A stretch of 64,000 nucleotides of DNA, from contig JAAEAF010003722.1 in NCBI GenBank assembly GCA_011037195.1, positions 1 to 64,000 of the forward strand, given 5' to 3'. Source of the DNA: Triatoma infestans. Lineage: Eukaryota > Arthropoda > Insecta > Hemiptera > Reduviidae. This document shows positions 3,932 through 61,340 of this stretch, piece by piece. The notes beneath the pieces were generated by a model. That model saw only the letters and a program-made list of their open reading frames with translations. It was not told the origin of the DNA and did not search any database. How positions within the stretch are numbered: position 1 is the stretch's first letter; each line of letters begins with the position of its first letter. The translations under genes were made by a program, and so were the position numbers.

Positions 3932-4262
3932 AAAAATCACAGAATCATAGACATTTTCCGTGGAAGCCTGCTTCATTTTGTGGTCATCGACCGGGTTCGG
4001 GCGTTCGCCCATCTTCAGGATGCGTTTTTCAGACAATGTCAACACAGACTTGCATAGAGCAAATTCAGTTTTACACACTGACTGGTGTTATTAACTGTAT
4101 CTTAAAACTAAACTAAACTGTTGATGACTAAACTAAACATCCTGATGATGGGCGAACGCCCGAAACCGGTCGATGACCATAAAATGAAGCAGGCTACCAC
4201 GGAAAATGTCTCTGATGCTTTCCAGCTCTGTGGAACCAACCATCACAACAAAAATCACAGAA
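3932..4262. mobile_element. PLE-A copy 2, complete fold-back, 13-bp TSD
   Basis: Element 3945-4249 (305 bp) is flanked by AAAAATCACAGAA at 3932-3944 and 4250-4262. The arms are inverted: the left long arm (3945-4110) is the complement of the right arm (about 4135-4220), sharing CGGTCGATGACC and AAATGAAGCAGGCT. Only the right end carries the extension with CCAGCTCTGTGGAACCAACC. It has no coding capacity. The right arm has the best-preserved hammerhead-like motif in the window (4138-4175). Size, TSD and the one-sided tail match copy 3, so this is a discrete mobile unit. Confidence 0.8.
4138..4175 (+). ncRNA. Hammerhead-ribozyme-like motif, family A
   Basis: In order: CATC (4138-4141), CTGATGA (4142-4148), one extra T, a GGGC/GCCC hairpin (4150-4161), GAAA (4162-4165), self-complementary ACCGGT (4165-4170), then C followed by GATG (4172-4175). 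CATC and GATG can form stem I, CTGANGA and GAAA are the conserved hammerhead core, and the expected cut would follow GTC at 4171. The unpaired T between the core A and stem II is not canonical and is the main argument against activity. Motif recognition only; activity is unknown. Confidence 0.45.
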
Positions 4263-5606: not shown

Positions 5607-5938
5607 ATATACAAGACAGGTTGTTGTGGTGGTTGGTTCCGCAGAACTAGAAAGCATCACAGACATTTCCCGTGGTAGCCTGGTTTATTTTGTGGTCATC
5701 GACCGGTTTCGGGCGTTCGCCCATCTTAAGGCTACTCTTAGATTTTCTCCTTCTCATAAAGAGTAGCACGGCGGATTCGTACGCGAGAGTCAGTGTGTAA
5801 ACTAAATTTGCTCTGTTCAAGTCTGTGTTGTCACACTGTCTGAAAAAACGCATCTGAAGATGTGTGAACGCCCGAAACCGGTCGATGACCACAAAATGAA
5901 GCAGGCTACCACGGAAGATGTCTCTGATATACAAGACA
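5607..5938. mobile_element. PLE-A copy 3, complete fold-back, 12-bp TSD, opposite orientation
   Basis: Element 5619-5926 (308 bp) is flanked by ATATACAAGACA at 5607-5618 and 5927-5938. Here the extension (GGTTGGTTCCGCAGAACTAG) is at the left end and the long arm is at the right, so the unit is inverted relative to copies 1 and 2. Arms pair around CGGTCGATGACC and AAATGAAGCAGGCT. The centre (5727-5800) resembles a piece of SINE1 (ACTCTTAGATTTTCTCC). The right-arm core is CTGAAGA with a slightly altered stem II. Confidence 0.8.
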
Positions 5939-9150: not shown

Positions 9151-10262
9151 GAGCAAGTAATAATAATAATAATCGTTGAAAATTATTATACATTCAGTCT
9201 AAGTACATGTACACCATATCATATGTATATCTGTGTATAGTAAACTGTCCATTGTTATTTTTTTTGGTAGTGGTAGTCGACTAGCCAGGATAAATGATTC
9301 CCTCGTGGTCTAGGTCCATTTACGCCGCCGTCGTCAGTTCAGACACTAACGAGGGAAATCTTCCAGTCTCCCCAACAAAGTACACATGTAATATTGTGAC
9401 ATTTATGTTATGGCGCCGGCCAAATGGCCTTCACTACATATCTCTTTCTCTCTCTCTTGGAGCGGCCTATCTTTCTACTGGAGTAGTCCCAATTATTTTT
9501 CATGATCCTTGAACAATATTAACCCATAACGATAGAAATTGATAACATACTAAAACTAAGATTAACTAAACAATAATTCAGTTACTTCCCTGGCAAAAAC
9601 GATTATCACTATGATGATGGAAATACATGATTATATTTCGATTTATTGTGCATGTCTAACATTTAGTTAACTAAATATTACACATTTCTTTTGATAACTA
9701 AATAAAATCTGTAAACATCCAAATCGCCGGTTAATTTATAGTCAACAATTCAAGTTTTACCAATTTTTATGAAATATTTTTACGAAATTGTATTAATATA
9801 TTTCATTTTCAAGACTTTTTATAGCAAGTTTTATTGGGTCTCTACACAGATATATTTTATTTATCGATTTCTGCAGAGTATCTCTCAAAATTTTATTTTA
9901 TGAGTTTATTATAATATAAATATTTGAGTTCAATTAGAAAGCTGTTTTTAAATTTTTGCAACAATAAATTCTGGCTTTTTACAAAATTTCATCGGTTGTT
10001 TACTTAAGATCATCACAAAAAAAAAAAAAATACTGAAAAAAATGTAGAGCAATGTCTTTAAAACCTTCCATCATATACGGTTCATCTGAGAGATTCTACT
10101 CCTAAATTATTTGTTTCATTTAGATAAGAAACAGTAAGCACTCGTAAATTCCTTCTGTGTATCTTTATGGTTAATTTGTTAGTTTTGAACTACCAACGTC
10201 ATCTTGAGAACAACATTTTTTTGCCAAATTTAATATTCTGTCAGTATAACACGTTCATTCAT
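9151..10262. other. Gap, no gene seen
   Basis: AT-rich. 9290-9520 is less AT-rich and has an open frame with no recognisable content and a CTCTCTCT tract; I see no support for a gene. Confidence 0.4.
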
Positions 10263-11063
10263 GCAAGTTTCTTTTCTTGTTTATTTCTATGTGGTGTGCT
10301 GTTTTATAGTAGTTTCAGATGAATAATTTGGATGACAATGATGAACCAATTGACAGCCAGATATATATTTAATTTAGATGTTAATTTAACATTCGTCGCA
10401 ATTTGTCCTTGACGTTTCAGCATTTGCCATTATCAAAAGGATGAAATTTTATGTAATAATAAACATTGTCTGGAAGAAAGAAAAAACATATTTAAACAGA
10501 TGGTGTTTTAGTTAAGTATACAAACAATAAGTACAATTTTTTATTATTATTTATTTGATTATTTGGTCCACAATTAAATACTCACCTTAAGAAGTTATAA
10601 TGATTTTTACTATATGTTTTGTAAGTTGGATAGTAATTTATGCTGTTGGCCAAAAATATATAATAAAATTTTGTATTAGTTTCAAATTTTCCAATTGTGA
10701 ATTTAGTTATTCTTCTTTTAATATCAGTTGCCCAAAAGATAGCGTGTAGCTAGGGGTCTAACTCAATAAAATGTAAGTAATAAAAACCAGTTTTAAATAT
10801 TTGTCATACAACTTATACAACTAATAACAGTAATATTAATAAATATTTTCATTATACAGATCAAAAAACTATGCCAGCCGGTATAAATCCTATCATATAT
10901 TATCAACCCATTAGAATACATGTGGTGCACCATATTTGAAAAATATAATATCCTCAATCATCCATAAAATTTAACTACATTCATAACGTAAATACCAATC
11001 AGAATAAGCAGTCTAATATTACTATCCTTTCTATAAATATTGCCATTAATATTACTATTACTA

Positions 11064-12627
11064 TTAATATTAATATTCTCGTCGGGTGGTCCTTTTGGTC
11101 ACGCTTGATGTAAAGAACGCCTTCAACTCGGTTAGTTGGGTAGATATGCTGCGAGCGCTGGAGGAAACGTTTCGAGTCCCGAAGTACCTTCTGCGAGTGA
11201 TAAGTGATTATCTGCGGAACCGAACGGTTATTTATCAGACTTCGAGAGGGCCAAGAGCATCCGCAGTTACGGCAGGAGCAGCGCAGGGATCCATCCTGGG
11301 CCCAGACCTCTGGAATGTGGCGTATGACGACCTGCTTAGACAGGAAATCCCAGAAGAAACAGTTTTGGTTGGATACGCAGACGACGTGGCAGCACTTGTA
11401 GCCGCCCGTGATGTCGAGAAAGCCCAACTAAAGTTGAATAGGGTGATGCGTATCGTCAATAGATGGATGACGGTGCATGGACTGTCTTTGGCACTATCCA
11501 AAACAGAGATCGTGGTCCTGACGAAAAAGAGGATCCCCACGAGCATATCATGGCGTGTTGGAGAAGAAATTGTGACCTCGAAGAGTACTGCCAAGTATCT
11601 GGGTTTGACGATTGATGGTAAGCTGAGCTTCGGTAAGCAAATTCAGAGCGCAGCGGATAAGGCCGCGAAGAGTGTTGCGTCCCTCAGTAGGCTGATGGGA
11701 AACATTGGTGGTCCCCAGGGCAGTACACGGCGAGTGTTGATGAGTGGCACACTCGATACTCCTTTACGGAGCTGAGGTATGGGCGGACGCTCTTAACAAG
11801 CAGGCCTACAGGACAAGAATAGCTCGAGTGCAGCTTGGTGCACTGAGGATTGCCTCTGCATACCGCACGGTGTCTGAGCCAGCAGTTCTTGTGATTGCCG
11901 GAGTGATCCCGATTGAACTCCTTGCTAGAGAACGCAAGATCCTCCACGAAAGGAAGGCAGAAGGGAGTAAGGAGGCTCTCTCCAGGGAGGAGAGGAATCG
12001 CACTTTCCGGAGGTGGCAGGCTTCCTGGGAAGATGATCTGCGGGGCCGATGGACCGCTAGGTTAATTAGGGAGATAAAGCCATGGACGAAGAGGCCACAT
12101 GGGGAAGTGGACTATTACGTCACACAACTCCTGAGCGGGCATGGCTATTTCAGGGCGTACCTGAAAAAGATGGGAAAGGTAGAGAATGAGGAATGCCTTT
12201 ACTGCCCCGGCAGTAAAGACGATGCTTCCCACACGTTTTTCTCCTGCGGTCGGTGGGACCGGCTCAGAGGTGATCTTGAGGCTGTGATTGGGCAACAGAC
12301 TCCAGACACTCTAGTTGAGGCTATGCTGGCCAGAGAGGCCAACTGGCAAGCTGTAGCTCGGTATGCCAGGGACATTCTTCAGCGGAAGAAGCAGGACCTG
12401 GACGACTGCCAAGTAGGGTAATACCGAAGGAGATACTCAATGAGTAAAGACACGAGGCCTAGTTCTGATGTAATGCTGGTCACCAGTGAATCCAGACTAG
12501 GTCTAGCAGCAGAGGGGTGTTTTAGCCGGTAGTCTATTTTAGGAGTCCGGCACAGCAGGGTCTCTGCGTACGTAAATGCATTTCACCCCTCGATCAAAAA
12601 AAAAAAAAAAAAATTAATATTAATATT
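11064..12627 (+). mobile_element. R1-like LINE, 5'-truncated, 14-bp TSD
   Basis: Insertion of 11078-12613 into the middle of PLE-D. TTAATATTAATATT occurs at 11064-11077 and 12614-12627, although the target is itself low complexity. The element ends in a poly(A) of about 16 after a 3' UTR of about 175 bp (12422-12596). Base composition is clearly more GC-rich than the surroundings, which fits a younger insertion. Confidence 0.8.
11086..12421 (+). pseudogene. R1-like LINE ORF2 (RT palm to C-terminal zinc finger), one frameshift
   Basis: The first frame (11086-11775) begins inside the RT with VTLDVKNAFNSVSW, then GAAQGSILGPDLW, the catalytic box GYADDVAALV, LALSKTEIVVL and AKYLGLTIDGKLSFG. Near 11740 the frame changes. 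The second frame (11744-12421) continues with SILLYGAEVWADAL, RIASAYRTVSEPA, HGEVDYYVTQLLSGHGYF and the Cys/His motif CLYCPGSKDDASHTFFSC. This domain order and the SGHG..C..C.....H....C ending are typical of R1-group LINEs. Endonuclease and the RT fingers are lost to 5' truncation; the frameshift also inactivates it. No RNase H domain. Confidence 0.85.
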
Positions 12628-12832
12628 ACTATTACTATAAATTACTATCCAACTTACAAAACATATATTAAAAATCATTATAACACCTTAAGATGAGTAT
12701 TTAATTGTGGACCAAATAATCAAATAAATAATAATAAAGAATTATACTTATTGTTTGTATAATTAACTAAAAACACCATCCGTAAAAAATGTTTTTTCTT
12801 CCAGACAATGTATATTATTACATAAAATTTCA

Positions 12833-12874
12833 TCCTTTTGATAATGACATGTATTACTGCTGAAACGTCAAGGA
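12833..12874 (+). ncRNA. Hammerhead-like motif, family D
   Basis: TCCTT (12833-12837) precedes TTGATAA (12838-12844). A weak hairpin follows, then GAAA (12862-12865), CGTC and AAGGA (12870-12874). TCCTT and AAGGA can form a 5-bp stem I. The core differs from CTGANGA at two places (C3 to U, G8 to A). The left arm carries the same motif on the minus strand at 10406-10441. Confidence 0.3.
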
Positions 12875-13481
12875 CAAATTGCGACGAATGTTAAATTAAC
12901 ATCTAAATTAAATATATATCTGGCTGTCAATTGGTTCATCATTCTCATCCCAATTAATCATCTGCAAGTTTCTTTTTATTTCCAATATTTCTTTAAATAA
13001 TTACATTTAAACTTTAAATAATATAGTAATGTTTAGTACCGTGTACTATTTTCATTGCTAACCAATGGAACTATGTGATATAGGAAAATGTCATTTTGAT
13101 GAATTGTGTATAGTTTTTTGTAGAGGATAACCTCTTATATAACCTCATAATCCTAGCAAACTGACGAGTACACAATAAAACTGTTTTCTGTTTCAAATTC
13201 AAGAAGAGGTATTAGAACTATTTTTGTTATAAATGTAATTCATTGCTATATTAGAACACGATAAATATAAATACATTTCCGAATGTAAATCCACCAATAT
13301 AGTTAAATGAATAGTTTTAATATTGTGGTATTCAAATGTTTATATTTGTGATTAGTATAAATAGTATTCCGATCGTGCCAAGTTTTCGAAATTGAGTTTT
13401 CACCAGAAATACAAGTTTTGAGGGCTCCCTGAGTCTAAAAAGTGGTTTTCCAGAATATGGTCTGTATGTATATGAGGTTTT

Positions 13482-15135: not shown

Positions 15136-15351
15136 TGGGAGGTGGTTGACAGGAACTGTGAACCACAGACTTTAGGGCTGTGAATCACAGTGGGTACAAT
15201 GGTTATTGTAATTTACACAGAATGCTGCTAAACAGTGACGGGCACTTGTTAGTTCTTTGAAGTTGTCTGACGTTGTCTGTTCTTTCAGCTCGTTCGTTGA
15301 AGTGTCCAATTCATTTCGTTCGGTCACTTAGTGTATTCTTTTTTGGGTGAA

Positions 15352-16818
15352 ATGCCACGAACATCGGCCTCAAACAGACAACTGGTTGCTAAATATCTTC
15401 GCGAGTTTCCAGCAGAACTTTTTCGAAGTGATAGAGACATTTTGTACTGCACAGCTTGTGACAAGCGCGTTTCTTGCTCTCAGCGTTCCCAGGTCACCCA
15501 ACATATTGCCACCGGATCGCACATAGAGAATAAAAACAGAAAGAAAGAGACGACGTCCTATCAAGCCTTCCTTACATCTCCATCATCAAGTAAGTCTACT
15601 CTGAGTACAGATCTGTGTCGGGCTTTGGTTAGAGCAGATATCCCTTTCCACAAACTTAAAAATCCTCATTTCAAAGGATTCTTAGAGACCTATATTGGGA
15701 AAAAAATGCCTGACGAGAGCACTCTGCGGAAAAACTACCTAGAAGATATCTATAAAGATACACTAACCAAAATTAGTGGACCGATTTGGGTGTCAATTGA
15801 TGAAACCACTGACGTTGAGGGCAGGTATATTGGCAATGCAGTTATTGGAAAACTTGACAGTGATGCTGATGTGGATTCAAAGCCATTCCTTTTGAACTGT
15901 GAGGTTCTCGAAAAATGCAATCATTCAACCATTTCACGATTCTTCGATGCCTCAATGCATATCTTATGGCCCAGTGGAGTTTTGAACGAAAAAGTTCTTT
16001 TGTTTCTCTCTGATGCTGCCCCCTACATGGTCAAGGCTGGGCAATCTATTCAGGTATTTTATTCTAAGATAATTCATGTGACGTGTATTGCTCATGCCTT
16101 GCATCGATTAGCAGAAACTGTCCGATCTTTGTTCAGTGACGTAGATTCCTTAATCTCCTCGGTTAAAAAAGTGTTCTTAAAAGCACCAAGTCGCATTAAA
16201 ATGCTAAAAGATCTCTATCCAGACTTGTGCCTTCCACCAGAACCAATATTGACAAGATGGGGTACTTGGCTGGAAGCAGCTCAGTATTACTATGAAAACT
16301 ACAATAAAATCAAGAATGTCCTTTCACATCTCGAAGACGAAGCAGTAGCGATAAATACAGCCAAGTCTTTATTCGAGAAACCTAATTTAAGGAACGACCT
16401 TGCATTCATTTCTGACAATTGCGTATTTCTTGCACAAGCCATTACCCAACTTGAGTCCCAAAATGTTCGACTGACAGAAAACGTGTCCAACGTTAAAAAA
16501 GTCATCGAAAAGGTGGAAGGAATACCTGGGAGTAAGGGAGATCTGATCAGATCAAAACTGGTAGAAGTACTGAGCAAGAACAAAGGGTGGGAGACCATCT
16601 GCCAGATTTCTGATATTATCAGTGGAACAGAAGTCACCTCAGAACATCGTGTACCCTTTACAACCAACGAGATAACTTCTTTCAGCAAGGCACCTATAAC
16701 ATCTGTAGATGTTGAACGATCTTTTAGTCGTTACAAGTCCATCTTACGCCCAGATCGTCGTCACTTTACGTTCCAACATTTGAAATTTCATGTGGTTGCA
16801 AACAATTTCGAAGAGTGA
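15352..16818 (+). CDS. hAT-superfamily transposase (BED finger, CGBP1-like N-terminus)
   Basis: Single uninterrupted frame, about 488 residues from the Met at 15352 (MPRTSASNRQ); an in-frame Met at 15331 is possible but adds only seven residues. A BED-type zinc finger has C33, C36, H51 and H57. The RNase H-like core has VSIDETTD (Asp about 150), FLSDAAPYMV (Asp about 220), the C..H pair of TCIAHALH, and LTRWGTWLEA (about 300). The C-terminal dimerisation segment is ITSVDVERSFSRYKSIL. hAT proteins cut and paste their element and leave 8-bp TSDs, as seen here. The frame is open over 1.5 kb in a window where nearly every other element gene is broken, so it is recent or constrained. Domestication is possible but nothing here shows it. 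Confidence 0.85.
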   Translation: MPRTSASNRQLVAKYLREFPAELFRSDRDILYCTACDKRVSCSQRSQVTQHIATGSHIENKNRKKETTSYQAFLTSPSSSKSTLSTDLCRALVRADIPFHKLKNPHFKGFLETYIGKKMPDESTLRKNYLEDIYKDTLTKISGPIWVSIDETTDVEGRYIGNAVIGKLDSDADVDSKPFLLNCEVLEKCNHSTISRFFDASMHILWPSGVLNEKVLLFLSDAAPYMVKAGQSIQVFYSKIIHVTCIAHALHRLAETVRSLFSDVDSLISSVKKVFLKAPSRIKMLKDLYPDLCLPPEPILTRWGTWLEAAQYYYENYNKIKNVLSHLEDEAVAINTAKSLFEKPNLRNDLAFISDNCVFLAQAITQLESQNVRLTENVSNVKKVIEKVEGIPGSKGDLIRSKLVEVLSKNKGWETICQISDIISGTEVTSEHRVPFTTNEITSFSKAPITSVDVERSFSRYKSILRPDRRHFTFQHLKFHVVANNFEE

Positions 16819-20316: not shown

Positions 20317-20706
20317 CCTAGAAAAATACTAGAGATTTTTACGCCATTTTATTAAGCACGTCATTTTTGTGAACATAAACTAATTCCGGGCGTTTGCCCA
20401 TCTTCAGGATGTCATCGTGTAAAAGCAGTGTACGCACAGGTTTTGGGGGAAATGTTTTGTATTGGGTTTTAACATGTGAACTTTGTCAGGTGTAAAGAAA
20501 AAAAATCCTACTTAACCTCAGTTAGGTCATGCAAAACACTTCTCCCTAGACAGTATTTAAATGATTAATTTGTCACCTACAATTCTGTGATATCACAAGA
20601 CATTCTTAAGAGTGGCGAACGCCCATGCAGGTTGCATTCGGAAAAAATTCTGATGTTTTTCAGTTGTGGAAACTCAACCACAATGACCTAGAAAGCACGA
20701 CTTTCA
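20317..20706. mobile_element. PLE-A copy 4, degenerate fold-back
   Basis: The left arm (about 20335-20410) includes CCGGGCGTTTGCCCATCTTC and the right arm (20612-20660) includes GTGGCGAACGCCC. The right end has an extension-like TTCAGTTGTGGAAACTCAAC. CCTAGAAA flanks both sides (20317-20324 and 20697-20704), a plausible but short TSD. The centre (20420-20610) is unique to this copy. Confidence 0.5.
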
Positions 20707-33099: not shown

Positions 33100-33195
33100 A
33101 TAAAATACGGAACTGAAACTTGGGCGAACACGCGAAAGCGGTCGATGACCATAAAATGAAGCAGGCTACACGGAAAATGTCTTTGATGGTAAAAA
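33100..33195 (+). mobile_element. PLE-A fragment, right-arm type
   Basis: Contains GCGGTCGATGACCATAAAAT and GAAGCAGGCTACACGGAAAA, so it is the arm sequence of PLE-A in the same sense as the right arm of copy 2. The hairpin upstream is decayed. No partner arm. Confidence 0.6.
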
Positions 33196-36850: not shown

Positions 36851-36987
36851 TCCTGAAACATGGAAATTTTTACCCAGTTACCCTAACATAAGTGTAAAGT
36901 TGGTGACGTATATATATTATTAGGTAACAAATGGCAGGTGAGAATTATATACTTTTATTTTATAATTCAAAAGATTTCATCAAAATA

Positions 36988-37462
36988 TTGCACTAACTGA
37001 AGGAAAGGATTTTGAGTCTCGGTCTTTTTTTAAACCAAAAATAAAAAAACTTAAATTTTTGCCAACGTTTCGACAAATATATTGTCCTTTTCAAGGCATA
37101 AAAAATAAAAAATATAAAAACTAATAAAAAATCTTAAAAACATATCCAACTTGAAAACTTATGTAAAATTTAGAACTAAAAAGTTGAGATTACCTTAACC
37201 ACACAGAGAAAAGTGAAAAAATAAACCGGTTTCTCAACTTTTTAGTTCTAAATTTTACATAAGTTTTCAAGTTGGATATGTTTTAAAGATTTTTTAATAG
37301 TTTTTATATTTTTTATGCCTTGAAAAAGACAATATATTTGTCGAAACGTTAGCAAAAATTTAAGTTTTTTTATTTTTGGTTTAAAAAAAGGCCGAAACTC
37401 AAAATCCTTTCCTTCATACAAGTAACGGTCGAGAAGAATCTTCCATAATTGCCCGAACTGAA
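36988..37462. mobile_element. PLE-C fold-back element, imperfect 14-bp TSD
   Basis: Arms of about 190 bp (37002-37198 and 37230-37415) are inverted complements around a spacer of about 30 bp; they share GAAAACTTATGTAAAATTTA and CAAAAATAAAAAAACTTAAA-type text. The right side has an extra extension of about 33 bp (37416-37448). TTGCACTAACTGAA (36988-37001) and TTGCCCGAACTGAA (37449-37462) are a probable TSD with two mismatches. Each arm has a GAAACGTT hairpin (37060-37097 minus; 37316-37354 plus). Confidence 0.7.
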
Positions 37463-48761: not shown

Positions 48762-49393
48762 TGTAACAACAGTTCTCCGCCCGGCCACCAGGTTTGCACC
48801 AAGTGGACCTTTCACTAGGGAGGCACACCCCCACTACACTAGGACTCTCCTACTCCACTACAGAGGGGAGAACTTTCACCGGCTAGACCCGCCTACTGGA
48901 CACCATCCCTACCACCATCCTAGAATCGTATATAAGGGGCCATCCACGACCAGAATAATCAGAGAGAAGTACTCAGCGATTAGAAACTCTTCTAATAGTT
49001 TTGGCGCTAGCTAGGCAGGCCCTTAACTAACTTCTCAGAGCATCTGCGCTAGGCAAGAGAGCCAGGCCGTTTCCTCATCCAGCGATCACCGTTTCAAGAC
49101 ATCTGCGCTAGGCAGGAGAGCCAGGCCGTTTGTTCGTACAACGATCACCGATAAGTAGTGTGCGCTAGGCAAGAGGGCCAGGCCACTCTACTCGACGAGC
49201 GACGATTGACAATCTGTGTCACTCCCTGAGCGAACAGATAGGTCATAGCAACCATTTACTGTATATGCTTTTCAGAATATATGTAACATTTCACTAAGTG
49301 TGCTTTGACATTTACTGGGTGTATTTTATTTGCAGAATCACGAATCCTAGTTCCCCACACCCCCCGGGATATTTATTCTGGGAGTGTGTTATA
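48762..49393 (+). repeat. 5' LTR
   Basis: 632 bp. TATA-like CGTATATAAGGGG at 48928-48940. Downstream are three imperfect tandem units of 50-60 bp with GCGCTAGGCAAGAG and GCCAGGCC (49046-49200). Confidence 0.92.
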
Positions 49394-49399
49394 AAAGAA

Positions 49400-49418
49400 A
49401 TGGCGCCCAACGTGGGGC
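49400..49418 (+). promoter_or_regulatory. Primer binding site
   Basis: TGGCGCCCAACGTGGGGC about 7 bases after the 5' LTR. It begins with TGG, complementary to a tRNA CCA end. I do not assign the tRNA. Confidence 0.75.
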
Positions 49419-49479
49419 ACGAGCTCTAGAACGACCATCGACGGAGCGACAGCCCAGCCCCGAATTAGGAGACATAAGC

Positions 49480-52400
49480 ATGCAGCTCACCCCAGAGATG
49501 TTGCAGCAGCTGATACGAGGCATCAATCAAGACAGGCAGACCCAGCCGTCTGGCCTAATGATTGGGTGTACCGCACGCTACGGAGGAAAACCAGGAGAGG
49601 ACCTGGATGTCTTCATCTCCGCAGCAGAGACGTACAAGGAAGCAGCCCGAGTGAGTGACAACCACGCATTAGCCGCACTGCCCATGCTACTCACAGACGT
49701 TGCAGGAACTTGGTGGCTCGGAGAGAAGGAAACCACCACAACATGGCCTGACGCCATACAGCAGCTGAGGCGAACTTTTGGACCTAGGAAGTTCAACGAT
49801 CAGCTGTACCGAGAGTTTTTCAACACGCCGCAGGACAACAAGACCATCACGGACCAGTTTGTCTGCAGCAAGCGAGCAATACTTGCTCAAATCACCCCGG
49901 CTCTGGACATCCATGTTCAGCTGGACATGACCTATGCGGTACTCCATCCCAGGTTAAGGACCCGCATCAGGAGGGAAACTGTCGATACCTTCTGGGCACT
50001 CGTGCAAGAGGCCAGACGTATCGAGCAGTATGAGGACCCAGCACCAGCAGCAAAGAAGCCAAACGAGAGGACAGGTGGCACTACCAGGTGTGACTACTGT
50101 GGCATCAGAGGCCACTATCAGAAGGACGGCAGGAAGGCAAAGGCAGCCCACCCGCACAAGCAGCAGCCTACAGCACAGGCGGCCTACAGTTGTTTTGGTT
50201 GCAACAGACCGGGAGTATACAGGAGGAACTGCCCGGACTGCAACCAAACGAAGACGCAGCAAGAAAGAACAGGCTCTTTCTGTGCTGCCCACATACAGAT
50301 CCGCACCCGGCAGAGGCCAGCACTCAGCTTTGCCGTGTGGAACCTAGAGGGCACTGGCTTTGTAGACACAGGAGCCAAGACCAGTATAGGCAGCCACCAG
50401 CTGCAGACCCTGCTAGAAGAACGAGGACATCCCCTCACCCTAACAACTGCTACAGTGACGCTAGCAGCCGGAGAAGAAACAACGCAGCAGGTTGCACAGA
50501 CGCAACTGCCAGTCAAACTGAAGGGAAGGACAATCCCGACCAGTTTCACATTCTTCCCGGGAGCCCGGAACACCCAGACGTTGCTCGGAATAGACTTCAT
50601 TGAGGACGCTGGACTTATATTGGATTTTGGAGAACACAGGTGGAGGTTTCATGACACCCCCACACTCTACCCATTCACCAGAAAGGACAAGCCAGCACCA
50701 CCACAGTTACAGATGGACACTGTGACTATGACACCGCAGCCAGCACTACTCAGCCCACTGCCGCTGACTCCAGTAAAAGGAGACACACAAGTTCATAGGG
50801 AAACCCAGAACACGGTTGTGAAGGTACCACAACCCACATCAGGAAGAATACAGATGGACACTGTGACTATGACACCGCAGCCAGCACTACTCAGCCCACT
50901 GCCGCTGACTCCAGTGAAAGGAGACACACGAGTTTATAGAGAAACTCAGAACACGGTTGTTAAGGTACCACAACCCACATCAGAAAGAATCAGCCCACCG
51001 CCGCTGACTCCAGGAGCAGAAGACACACGAGTTTATGGAACAACTCAGGAAGCGATTGTGCAGACGCCACAATTCAGGACAACCATGGTCAGCCCGCTAC
51101 CATCCACACCAACAAGAACGCTAGTAGAGATGGAAGCTACCGAAGAGGCCATACTCGGAGGCTATGGACCCTCACCACCGGTACAACAGGACACCACCAG
51201 GGGTAGGTGGATAATACACCGTTGCGAGCCCACCGAAAGGACTCACCACACGCCCACCAGGCATAGCCATCTAGACTTCCATAGGGTATGGGTGGATGAC
51301 ACCCTATGGCCATCGGAGGAGCAACTACAGCTTTTCACCATAGACGTGGAGCTTAGAAAAGACGAAGGCACCCGGCTCACCCGAGCACAACAGGAGCAGG
51401 CTAATGAGATACTTGCTGCTCACGAGGACGTGTTGGGAATTCCTACAGAGCCTACGCCACACGCAGAACACAGGATAGACACCGGAGAGGCATCACCTAT
51501 AGCAGCACCGCCATACCGGCTATCACCTAGCAGACGTCACATCTTGGAACAGGAGATTTCCCAGATGCTGGACGGACGGATCATCGAGGCCTGCGACAGT
51601 GAATGGACCTCACCTGTCGTCATGGTGCCCAAGAAGGACAACACGTACAGGATATGCATTGACTACAGGAAGTTGAATGCAGTCACCAAAGCAGATCATT
51701 ATCCACTGCCACGGATAGATGACATCTTGCACACTCCTAAAGGGACGCAGTATATGAGCACGCTAGACCTCAGAGCAGGGTACTGGCAGATCAAGGTGAA
51801 ACTAGAGGATCGAGATAAAACCTGTTTCATCACACCTTTTGGAACCTACCGGTTTAACAGAATGCCATTCGGCTTACGCAACGCACCCGCCACCTTTCAG
51901 AGACTTATGGACAAGTTTCGAACTGGACTCAGCCACATCACACTGCTAGTCTACCTAGACGACCTAATAGTGCTCTCACCAGGCTACGAGGAGCATCTAT
52001 CAGACCTACAAGAGGTATTTCAGCATCTAGAGAAGTACAAGCTGAAGGCCAACCGGCCCAAATGCCACTTCTGCTGCGAACGAATCAAGTACCTAGGCCA
52101 CGTGATTACGCCTAGAGGAGTCACCCCCGATCCAGAGAAGATCGAAGCTATACTCAAGAGACCCGCACCGAGGAACGTAAAGGAACTTAAGAGTTTCCTT
52201 CAGACCTGCTCGTGGTACCGACGATTCATCCCAGACTTTGCCAAGATCGCTCGACCGATGACCTTGCTCACCAGGAAAGCCGCCACATGGACATGGACCA
52301 CCGACCAAGCAGATGGATTTGACCAGCTAAAGAAACTACTGACGTCAGCACCCATCCTCCAGCCTGCCGATGAGACTCGCCCCTTCACTATCAAAACCGA

Positions 52401-54124
52401 CGCTAGTGCTTATGCTATTGGAGCAGTCTTAGTCCAGGGGGAGCAAGAAGAAGAACATCCCGTGGAGTACGCCAGCCGCCTGCTTACAGCGCCTGAAAGA
52501 AACTACACGACGACCGAACGAGAAGCACTCGCCTTAGTATGGGCAATCTTCAAGTTCAGAGGATATATCGAGGCCAGCCCCACGTTGATAGTCACAGACC
52601 ACCAACCACTACAGTGGCTGATGACCCTGAAATCACCTACAGGCCGACTCGCCCGTTGGGCCCTGCAATTACAACCCTACGTATTTCAGATCAAATACAC
52701 ACCCGGAAGGAGCAACGCAGTGGCCGACACGTTATCAAGACCCCCTGAAGAAGAGAATTACGCAGTCTGTACCCTCACTATAGACATGCCGAGGAGAAGC
52801 GCTACGGAGATCCGGGAAGAACAGTCCAAGGATCCCGAGCTGAAGAAAATACTAGACGCCTTCACCGATCCAGAGCAAGATGGTGAAGCAGCTAGATGGT
52901 CCGCCAGAGGTTATCTAATAGCGAATGGTTGCCTTTACAGATACGCCACCGACGAGGAGGTGGACAACGCACAGCTAGCTGTTCCAGTACACGAACGAGT
53001 AGCTATACTAAAGGAGTACCACGATGCGCCCACAGCAGGACATAACGGTATTCACAAGACCTACCAGAGGATAATTAAGCATTATTACTGGCCAGGAATG
53101 CGACACAGCATTGAAGAGTATATACGAGCTTGCACGACATGCCAGAGGTACAAGGCATCCAACTTGAAGCCCGCAGGACTACTCAGGACCCCACCAATGA
53201 ACCAGCGATTCGAAGTCATCGCCGTAGACTTATTCGATCCCTTACCCGAATCAGTCGAAAGGTACAAGTGGATATTAGTCATCGAGGACACAGCATCCCG
53301 ATGGATAGAGCTTTTTCCCTTACAAGAAGCTACGGCACAGCGCTGCGGAGAACTACTACTAAACGAGTTCTTCTTACGATACGGAATACCAAGGAAGATG
53401 ATCAGCGACAATGGAACGCAGTTCATCAGTCACGTGATGCAGGACATCACCTTCTGTTTAGGCATTACACAAGCCTTTACACCAGTCTACCACCCGGCAG
53501 CAAACCCCGTGGAGAGACGAAACCGAGAACTGAAGACAAGACGCAGTTAGCCATCCTCGTAGGAGAAGACCACAGCGATTGGCCAAGGAGGCTGCCCGCT
53601 ATCAGATTCGCTCGTAACACCGCTGAATGCCAGGCTACCAAGATGACGCCTGCATACTTAACGTTTGGAAGAGAATTACGGACCCCCGCAGAGATCCAAC
53701 ATGACTTAAGAGAAGTCATCTCTTCAGAGAATTCATCGCCGAAATCACGCCAGCCCTCTCGCGCATGGCAGACACCTACTATAGAGCCCGAGACAACCCC
53801 GAAACGGCTCAGGACCGGCAGAAGAAATACGCAGACCAACGAGCACGTCCCGGCCCCCAGTACGCGCCCGGAGACCGCGTGTGGATCACTACCCACACAC
53901 AGAGCAGTAAGACGAAAGGACGAACAGCCAAGTTCGCTCCACGAAGGGACGGACCCTACGTCATTCTACACGCACAGGGACCCGTCAGCTATGAAGTAGC
54001 AGCCGAAGACACCCCGACGATACCACTGGGCAAATACCACGTGTCAAGCCTGACGCCCTGCACCGCAGACGCCCAGGAGAAGCCAATCCGAAGGTTAAGG
54101 AAGAGAGGCCGACCACGCCATTGA
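49480..54124 (+). pseudogene. gag-pol: gag-pol polyprotein of the gypsy element, two frameshifts near the end
   Basis: One frame runs from the Met at 49480 (MQLTPEMLQQLIRGI; upstream codons have no better start) to a stop at 53550. Gag has two decayed CCHC knuckles: CDYCGIRGHYQKD (about residue 203; last Cys gone) and CFGCNRPGVYRRNC (about 237; His gone). Protease: FVDTGAKTSI (about 295). A repeated linker follows (about 410-530). RT: ICIDYRKLNAV (about 725) and LLVYLDDLIVL (about 824). RNase H: IKTDASAYAIGAVL (about 973). Integrase: HNGIHKTYQ..., CTTCQRYK (about 1187-1220), VDLF Asp (about 1249), SDNGTQF Asp (about 1309) and PVERRNREL Glu (about 1344). The rest of integrase lies in frame 3 (about 53545-53725, reading QLAILVGEDHSDW) and then frame 2 (to 54124, with APGDRVWI). 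Two late breaks inactivate the integrase C-terminus unless they are assembly errors. Confidence 0.9.
50710..51080 (+). repeat. 141-bp in-frame tandem repeat in the protease-RT linker
   Basis: Unit 1 50710-50850, unit 2 50851-50991 (47 codons each, starting QMDTVTMTPQPALL), then a partial third unit keeping the second half (PPLTPGAEDTRVYGTTQ). Units 1 and 2 are nearly identical, so the duplication is recent. Confidence 0.9.
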
Positions 54125-55794: not shown

Positions 55795-56133
55795 TAGAGA
55801 TGTAAGTTTTCGGTAAAAAATGTAGAAAGTACCTATCTTACAGATTGACATGTAAGAAATAAAAATAAGAATAGCGGTCTATGAGTACATATTAAAAGTT
55901 GTAATTTAACTGGAACTTATATGAATTTTGTTATATATTTTTAAACACTTCTTATTAGAGCAAAAGTAATTTCTTTAGAGAATTTCTGAGTTTGTGAAGT
56001 TTCTCAGTAATATCTTACATCTAGTGGAAATCTGATCAAACAGCAATAATGTAATTTTCAAAAAGATCGTCTGTCGAACTAATTGTTTGTACAATTAAAG
56101 AAATTATTTAGAGAAAGGAAAAAATAAAAGAAG
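55795..56133 (+). repeat. Left TIR of element X, inner segment
   Basis: Runs from AGAGATGTAAGTTTTCGGTA to AAAAAATAAAAGAAG and matches the reverse complement of 60428-61070 without the MITE. Near its end it repeats motifs of the outer segment (TCGAACTAATTGT, GAAAGGAAAAAA). Confidence 0.8.
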
Positions 56134-56159
56134 TTTTTTTTTAGAAAACTTGGACAACT

Positions 56160-59689: not shown

Positions 59690-60341
59690 ATAGAATAATT
59701 CTTTATAACTGGTTATTTTAAATAATTGAACCATTTTCAACAGCCATCAATTTTTATTTAATAATCTTCCAACGTTTCATGCACTCTACGTGCCATTATC
59801 AAGGAATAACAATTCTAGTGTACATTCTGAATTTTTTTTATAACATATTATACATTTATTTCAAATTTTAATATTGTGCAACATTACTATTATATAGTCC
59901 ACTAAATAAATACCTTGTTAAACATTTAATGGTATTTTACTGTATCTATGTTGAGAGGCTTCGTCCATTTTGATTACACAGCATATAAATAAAAAGAATA
60001 AAACAGAAAAAATGATTAAATCTAAATGGACGAAGCCTCTCAACATAGATACAGTAAAATACCATTAAATGTTTAACAAGGTAATTATTTAGTGGAATAT
60101 ATAATAGTAATGTTGCACAATATTAAAATTTAAAATAAATGTATAATATGTTATAATAAAAATTTCAGAATGTACACTAGAATTGTTATTCCTTGATAAT
60201 GGCACGTAGAGTGCATGAAACGTTGGAAGATTATTAAATAAAAATTGATGGCTGTTGAAAATGGTTCAATTTATTTAAAATAACCAGTTATAAAGTAAAT
60301 CGAAGAAACAGCAAATAATTAAACATTTAATAGAATAATTC
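59690..60341. mobile_element. PLE-B fold-back element, 12-bp TSD
   Basis: ATAGAATAATTC at 59690-59701 and 60330-60341 flanks a 628-bp element. Arms 59702-59974 and 60028-60295 are inverted complements sharing GGACGAAGCCTCTCAACATA and TGTTTAACAAGGTA, around a spacer of about 53 bp. The right side alone has an extension of about 35 bp (60296-60329). Each arm carries the GAAACGTT hairpin (59767-59807 minus; 60189-60228 plus). Non-coding. Confidence 0.8.
60189..60228 (+). ncRNA. Hammerhead-like motif, family B
   Basis: TTCC (60189-60192), TTGATAA (60193-60199), extra T, a GCAC/GTGC hairpin, GAAA (60217-60220), CGTT, GGAA (60225-60228). TTCC and GGAA can form stem I. Core positions 3 and 8 are U and A instead of C and G. 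Mirrored in the left arm. Confidence 0.3.
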
Positions 60342-60427
60342 ATTTACCAGTTAAATTGGAAAGTGATCACTATTTTGGGGGAGTTAAGTATGTAAATTGA
60401 GATGAAAAGACTACTAGTTCTACTAAG

Positions 60428-61340
60428 CTTCTTTTATTTTTTCCTTTCTCTAACTAATTTGATTAATTGTACAGACAATTAGTTCGATTTTTTTGAAAAT
60501 TACCTTATTTGTGTAAGATCAGCTTTCCACTAGATGTAAGATATTACTGAGAAACTCCACAAACTATTTCTAAAGAAATTACTTTTGCTCTAATAAGAAG
60601 TGTTTAAAAATATATAACAAAATTCATATAAGTTCCAGTTAAATTACTACTATTAGTATGTAGGCATAGACCGCTATTCTTATTTTTATTTCTTACATGT
60701 CAATCTGTAAGATAGGTACTTTCAGGGGCGGCTTAACCTATAGTGCAGGGTGTGCAATGCACACGGGCGCCGCCGTCTCAGGGGGCGCCGCGGCGCTCCC
60801 TGAGACAGCTAAGAGCATCGTCTTGGACCATCATGGTACAACAATGATATGACAGAAGCGGCCAGCCAGCGCGGTGGCGGCAGTTATCAAACGCGAGCGC
60901 CCTATGGGCGGCTTCTTTTTCGAATATGAAAAAACTTTCTTGTTACGACGGCAATGTTAATAGTTATAGCCGGGGGGGGGGGTCAGGCCTAGGGGGCGCC
61001 AGGGTTTCATTGCACACGGGCGCTACACGAGCTAGAGCCGCCCCTGGGTACTTTCTACATTTTTAACCGAAAACTTACATCTCTACTTTGCAAGAATTGG
61101 CGGAATTATGTGTGTAAATTTAGTAAGTTTTAGATTAGAAAAGAGATTAAAAATATGCGGAACTTAGTACGTAAATTGAGATACAACAGTTACTAAATCT
61201 CTGCTTAAACACAGCTTTTTTTCCTTTATTTAATTGCATAAACAATTAGTTCGACAAAAGATATTAGTAACTACTTCGTCGTACATTGCGTTAAATAATA
61301 CTAAGCTGTACAAAAAAAAAAAAAAACGATATATTGGATT
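60428..61340 (-). repeat. Right TIR of element X
   Basis: Inverted copy of the left TIR, interrupted at 60715-61054 by a hAT MITE and its TSD. Confidence 0.8.
60715..61054. mobile_element. hAT-type MITE, 8-bp TSD
   Basis: Element 60723-61046 (324 bp) begins CAGGGGCGGCTTAACCTA and ends CTAGAGCCGCCCCTG, bracketed by GGTACTTT at 60715-60722 and 61047-61054. GC-rich, with GTGCA..GCACACGGGCGC repeats near both ends in inverted order. Inserted in the right TIR of element X. Confidence 0.93.

Follow-up and report, generated by a model that had tools for sequence, protein, structure and literature searches.

Head-to-head fold-backs with predicted dimer-type hammerhead ribozymes in Triatoma infestans are probably insertions of Penelope-like elements

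We found five short palindromic fold-backs, named A1, A2, B, C and D, in the window, the whole 64-kb stretch of Triatoma infestans DNA that was analysed (contig JAAEAF010003722.1). They belong to four families (A-D) and carry a hammerhead-like motif that reads outward in both arms of every fold-back, that is, the copies are arranged head to head (5/5). The window also contains an open reading frame at 15301-16818 (+) that has a DUF659 match just under the Pfam cut-off, shares 96% identity over 73% of its length with Rhodnius prolixus T1H901_RHOPR and is presumably hAT-like. A 1399-aa open frame at 49351-53550 (+) is gypsy-type gag-pol-like, as judged by eye from its translation. Family A comprises the following features, in which pLTR refers to the putative pLTR of a Penelope-like element (PLE).

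3945-4249, no strand: fold-back A1, two head-to-head putative pLTR copies (inverted self-match 3941-4219; bounds from the flanking 13-bp repeat)
3932-3944, +: A1 target-site duplication, left (AAAAATCACAGAA), exact 13-bp repeat with 4250-4262
4250-4262, +: A1 target-site duplication, right, exact 13-bp repeat with 3932-3944
4138-4175, +: A1 right-arm hammerhead, CATC/GATG, CUGAUGA..GAAA, ACCGGU, predicted cut after 4171 (pattern scan)
3985-4022, -: A1 hammerhead copy of the left arm, with CUGAAGA as core and, by mutation, GAAC for GAAA (alignment of copies)
4216-4249, +: A1 one-sided tail, rich in A+C, with a start known to within about 4 bases; right arm only, stops at the target-site duplication
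4148-4249, +: 34-codon open frame of family A through the putative pLTR end and tail, starting with an AUG made up of A9, the extra U and the first stem II G
5619-5926, no strand: fold-back A2, second head-to-head pair, tail about 5619-5655, left (self-match; absent from the preliminary description)
5607-5618 (left) and 5927-5938 (right), +: A2 target-site duplication (ATATACAAGACA), exact 12-bp repeat
5697-5734, -: A2 left-arm hammerhead remnant, mutated core (UUAAGA) (copy alignment)
5850-5887, +: A2 right-arm hammerhead remnant, CUGAAGA..GAAACCGGUC, one stem I base lost (copy alignment)
2650-2822, -: single family A copy, decayed hammerhead at 2692-2729 (dispersed-copy search)
33121-33188, +: family A copy truncated within the hammerhead (dispersed-copy search)
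20384-20412, -: short A-like match to the hammerhead 5' part only, namely one stem I strand, core and stem II (dispersed-copy search)

The last three lines, single or partial copies, are further additions to the preliminary description. Among the six aligned copies of family A, only the right arm of A1 has the exact core and stems. All features of the type I hammerhead core (CUGANGA...GAAA, A15.1-U16.1 and H17) are found in this arm, where the preliminary description had correctly read the exact core and the palindrome ACCGGU at 4138-4175 (+), and the other copies are changed in the core or stems. A hairpin followed by GAAAC had been described for both arms of each family; this fails in the left arm of A1, which reads GAACC. 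Compared with the consensus, the six copies differ at 26 of 228 ribozyme letters (a divergence partly due to copies truncated at that point), 19 of 260 downstream letters and 9 of 66 core letters. We saw no selection on the inserted copies of family A, as the ribozyme differs from the consensus at least as much as the neighbouring stretch in these six copies. This divergence pattern fits dead insertions, and the pairing maintained across families would reflect the parent elements. The copies in the window look like fossils. Three A copies (near 4138, 5731 and 33121) end at or within the 5' side of the hammerhead, not at the cleavage site, and these 5' ends are possibly a reverse-transcription stop.

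Families B, C and D comprise the following features.

59702-60329, no strand: fold-back B, head-to-head pair, unique centre, 43 nt between the arms (self-comparison)
59690-59701 (left) and 60330-60341 (right), +: B target-site duplication (ATAGAATAATTC), exact 12-bp repeat
60189-60228, +: B right-arm hammerhead, UUGAUAA, UUCC/GGAA, stem III ACGU, stem II GCAC/GUGC (pattern scan)
59767-59806, -: B left-arm hammerhead, identical to the right one (pattern scan)
60296-60329, +: B one-sided tail (flanking repeat and arm comparison)
36998-37447, no strand: fold-back C, probable right tail 37417-37447 (self-comparison)
36987-37001 and 37448-37462: C imperfect flanking repeat, 13/15 (flank comparison)
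37060-37098, -: C left-arm hammerhead, UUGAAAA core, UGCC/GGCA (pattern scan)
37316-37354, +: C right-arm hammerhead, one stem I mismatch (sequence re-read)
10276-12962, no strand: fold-back D, interrupted by a non-LTR retrotransposon (self-comparison and flanking repeat)
10262-10275 (left) and 12963-12976 (right), +: D target-site duplication (TGCAAGTTTCTTTT), exact 14-bp repeat
10276-10317, -: D one-sided tail, A+C-rich, 37-42 nt depending on the arm end chosen (flank/arm comparison)
10406-10441, -: D left-arm hammerhead, UUGAUAA, UCCUU/AAGGA, weak stem II (pattern scan, re-read)
12833-12874, +: D right-arm hammerhead, stem II mismatch, damaged (sequence re-read)

Fold-back B lies within a larger inverted repeat, whose arm pieces (55825-56136 and 60425-60723) are 90-97% complementary. 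The centres of B (59976-60018, 43 nt) and C (37190-37231, 42 nt) are near-equal, and their arms are unrelated. The non-LTR retrotransposon in the centre of D, at about 10642-12613 (+), has a poly(A) end near 12613 and an RVT_1 domain in the open reading frame 11074-11775 (Pfam); inspection by eye revealed no target-site duplication belonging to it.

On re-reading the sequence, we found the four hammerhead-like motifs within one base of the coordinates given in the preliminary description, and stem I pairs as claimed there (CATC/GATG in A, UUCC/GGAA in B, UGCC/GGCA in C and UCCUU/AAGGA in D). The pairing is maintained between the families while the bases vary. The double change from C3-G8 to U3-A8, also proposed in that description, is present as UUGAWAA...GAAACGUY in all six arms of B, C and D. 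Apart from this change, these arms fit the type I core and retain its other letters, and stem I is fully paired in five of the six. In all four families, stem III is diminished and self-complementary, as needed for pairing between two copies (ACCGGU in A and ACGU in B-D), so the suggested dimer-type layout agrees with the sequence.

Stems I and II each have at least four pairs in A1 right, B left, B right and C left. D left pairs in both stems only if stem II is taken as three pairs, one of them G-U, around a 4-base loop. C right and D right have one broken pair each. The stem I mismatch in the plus copy of C at 37316 had been pointed out before, while D right, the copy originally cited for its family, has a stem II mismatch that had been overlooked. 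Another correction concerns B, in which stem II is separated from the core by two unpaired bases on either side. The extra U noted between core and stem II in A, B and D does exist, and C too has an extra nucleotide (G or A) between A9 and stem II. The extra U had been counted against the hammerhead, which is not clearly justified, given that in A this U stands in the middle of an AUG, at the position at which a characterised PLE begins its ORF. MAFFT alignment set the families out of register at the core. The families had been regarded as unrelated; outside the motif this is nearly so, with a low uncorrected p in two of 12 comparisons using single-letter shuffles (A-B upstream, p=0.01; B-D downstream, p=0.03). 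Judging from these comparisons, any relationship between the families is weak at most.

It is conceivable that U3-A8 in B-D represents decay, or inheritance from one dead master, instead of a working core. The inserted copies of family A, whose ribozyme enjoyed no protection, and the possible relationship of B and D (p=0.03, uncorrected) are in keeping with this idea. We nevertheless regard it as unlikely, though worth keeping in mind, as positions 3 and 8 changed together in every arm of three families while the other core letters and nearly all stem I pairs were retained. Furthermore, natural hammerheads with C3-G8 covarying to U3-A8 were reported in 2011 by Perreault et al., and ribozymes with covarying bases at positions 3 and 8 had earlier been shown to be active in vitro, according to the consulted part of that paper (PMC3088659). 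The U3-A8 core in three of the four families is a rare but already described variant.

A search with Rfam hammerhead models, which the preliminary description had proposed, recognised none of the four families. Over the window, nothing matched at the gathering score or with E up to 5, and a limit of E up to 10, applied to one short stretch for each of the four families, gave no match either. Stem III is absent here. The unconstrained minimum-energy fold is the two-stem hammerhead form for C and nearly so for B, and is a different one for A and D. As the Rfam models miss all four families, such ribozymes may be under-annotated.

Exact direct repeats flank four of the five fold-backs (A1, 13 bp; A2, 12 bp; B, 12 bp; D, 14 bp). 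Among random flank pairs, an exact 12-bp repeat occurred in 0.25% of trials; when mismatches were permitted, 1.3% attained a score of 12. The 13/15 flanking repeat of C is equalled by about 9% of random pairs and alone is not significant. In A1, A2, B and D, the outer end of the longer arm stops at the direct repeat, and the other repeat copy adjoins the shorter arm. The resulting one-sided tails first measured 30-37 nt, and the re-read ends give 34 nt for A1 and up to 42 nt for D. Their A+C content is 0.67-0.78, against 0.51 in the window; that of the C tail, whose assignment relies on the imperfect flanking repeat, is 0.59. In family A, the extra U is explained by the formation of an AUG from A9, this U and the first G of stem II. 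The frame extends 102 nt from this AUG to the tail end, and the predicted cut lies 24 nt into it. The corresponding AUG frames stop after 12 codons in B and after 14 in D, and C lacks an AUG at this position, so that only A, with its 34 open codons, fits the start-codon reading.

These features indicate that the fold-backs are probably PLE insertions, consisting of two pLTR copies head to head, each with a predicted dimer-type minimal type I hammerhead. The target-site duplications, the one-sided tail and the head-to-head arms match PLE pLTR pairs, and a hammerhead is therefore expected in these fold-backs. As far as the sequence shows, the preliminary description was right about the hammerhead, its pairing, the double change and the dimer-type stem III, and it missed the probable PLE carrier. 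Several observations fit a PLE less well: the failure to find a PLE protein in the nine of 28 open reading frames searched, the weak flanking repeat and less A+C-rich tail of C, the early stops in the AUG frames of B and D, the lack of a match to the Rfam models, the minimum-energy folds of A and D, and duplications of 12-14 bp, longer than the 8-10 bp given for published PLE inserts in the consulted part of PMC3846280.

Three other accounts of the fold-backs were weighed. Long inverted arms and target-site duplications occur in fold-back DNA transposons too, and both count for the view that the arms are transposase terminal inverted repeats of non-autonomous fold-back DNA transposons containing a hairpin that resembles a hammerhead by chance. 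This view also agrees with the Pfam search of nine of the 28 open reading frames of at least 120 aa, which revealed neither a PLE reverse transcriptase nor a GIY-YIG endonuclease. However, a tail on one arm inside the duplication is unexpected for terminal inverted repeats and is a PLE trait, the arms differ at their 5' ends in A1 and A2, and the hammerhead as well as the position of the family A AUG match PLEs. A DNA transposon origin is accordingly improbable.

Short, non-coding, hammerhead-bearing fold-backs would likewise be explained by retrozymes, which are small non-autonomous elements that carry type I hammerheads and spread in the form of circular RNA, and vertebrate retrozyme hammerheads perform best as dimers, as stated in a part of PMC7229834. 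The metazoan retrozymes described there have canonical type I hammerheads and consist of short units, about 150-450 bp, repeated in tandem. The units in the window are instead inverted, minimal and tailed, and the insert start is not at the cleavage site. We found no direct or tandem hammerhead repeats of the retrozyme kind, the arms being inverted in all five fold-backs, and consider a retrozyme origin very improbable. The one-sided tail and the inverted arms thus made us judge both the DNA transposon and the retrozyme as less likely than a PLE.

As for chance resemblance, the motif is short, Rfam gives no match, and the scan patterns were hammerhead rules composed after the motif had been seen. 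The first pattern matched three of the motif sites and one unrelated site, against a mean of 0.3 (maximum 3) in 60 shuffles, and missed family B because its stem II does not adjoin the core. A second pattern, in which stem II starts at most two bases from the core and 2-base stem II loops are permitted, gave five matches (A1 right, B left, B right, C left and D left) against 0.01 (maximum 1) in 200 dinucleotide shuffles. Requiring a stem II loop of at least three bases left four matches, D left being lost, against none in 200 shuffles; with a 3-pair stem II also permitted, there were five against 0.005 per shuffle. A looser pattern, TTGAWRA..GAAACGTY, had six matches in the window against 0.05 in shuffles. 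The core pattern of B and D was also found seven times in viral and prokaryote contigs (two of these being the same phage sequence), which are no real test for relatives of an insect element, and stem I had zero or one pair in all seven. The stem I pairs in the window are therefore not a consequence of the core letters alone. The motif is present in all close inverted repeats of the window (4/4, namely A1, A2, C and B; blastn E up to 1e-6, gap below 600). Chance is hardly credible given the shuffle counts and the outside core matches lacking stem I, and we rejected it; as a sequence pattern, the hammerhead motif is real and above chance.

If the fold-backs are PLE insertions, their origin can be pictured as follows. 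The hammerhead of each pLTR would have no stem III of its own, and its palindrome, ACCGGU or ACGU, would pair with that of a second copy. The hammerhead of the parent element would span the ORF start, as the AUG position in family A suggests. Two motifs brought together, either within one tandem pLTR transcript or by the meeting of two RNAs, may form a double hammerhead that cuts after GUC or GUU. Such mutual cutting through the palindrome in a tandem PLE transcript is suggested by analogy with the literature on dimers. At a solo fold-back locus, cleavage is unlikely unless a partner RNA is supplied, because the sense and antisense motifs in one transcript would fold on each other. Insertion would be separate from cleavage. 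The PLE protein would cut both DNA strands and begin reverse transcription at either of two internal sites of the RNA that lie downstream of the hammerhead. The palindrome, the one-sided tail and the duplicated target would then result if both break ends served as primers or if the first cDNA primed itself.

It may be, although we propose this tentatively, that several PLE families in this triatomine use a lineage-specific U3-A8 hammerhead with a dimer-only stem III, undetected by Rfam, which cleaves only as a pair and perhaps depends on protein. That four families form the same pairs from different letters supports selection for the fold of the RNA in their parent elements. With their natural U3-A8 variants, families B-D lend themselves to studying what the 3-8 pair does in a dimeric hammerhead. 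These copies may also preserve, in their tail, duplications and palindromes, a record of how PLE insertion joins two cDNA ends.

The Penelope families of the rotifer Adineta vaga show head-to-head pLTRs, a one-sided tail and short duplications, as here. As described in the consulted part of PMC3846280, their inserts have inverted pLTRs with an optional 31-bp tail on one of them and 8-10 bp duplications in several cases, some having none; the pLTR extends 12 codons into the ORF (22 with the tail), and head-to-head is the commonest arrangement. Unlike the fold-backs in our window, these inserts mostly include the ORF, and the word hammerhead is absent from that paper.

Family A also resembles PAc, the Poseidon PLE of Anolis carolinensis. 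According to the part of PMC11167929 used here, the PAc hammerhead lies at the ORF start and is cut 26 bp into the ORF, compared with 24 nt in family A. The ORF begins at stem II, and C3 and G8 precede the start codon. Reverse transcription starts 111-118 bp into the ORF at an AC-rich stem loop, comparable to the A+C-rich stretch downstream in family A, both strands being cleaved and extended, and the PLE tail is delimited by two start sites of reverse transcription. The PAc hammerhead cleaved only with the protein, and insertion in vitro did not depend on this cleavage. The ORF of PAc is active and of full length, whereas only pLTR pairs were seen here.

Known minimal PLE hammerheads resemble those in the window in that stem III is missing or diminished, that they lie in PLE pseudo-LTRs and that they act as dimers. 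Such minimal type I hammerheads were reportedly described by Cervera and De la Pena in 2014 and by Lunse, Weinberg and Breaker in 2017. Families B-D, with U3-A8 for C3-G8, may differ in this respect from these collections, which are considered here as represented in citing papers. PLE hammerheads without stem III that act as dimers are thus already known, and why PLEs retain a hammerhead is still called a mystery (parts of PMC6155905 and PMC7761336 for the former, PMC7761336 for the latter). The hammerheads of Perreault et al. share U3-A8 with B-D, and a U-U mismatch at the base of stem II, comparable to the situation in B, is tolerated in natural hammerheads; the consulted text has no statement on PLE type or dimer form for the U3-A8 examples (PMC3088659). 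C3U in the consulted part of PMC7151607 is the start of a written core consensus, not a variant. Within the papers searched, we found none that links a hammerhead ribozyme with Rhodnius. The dimer layout and the U3-A8 change are each already known, and it is their combination, U3-A8 with a dimer-type stem III in three PLE-like families, that is possibly new.
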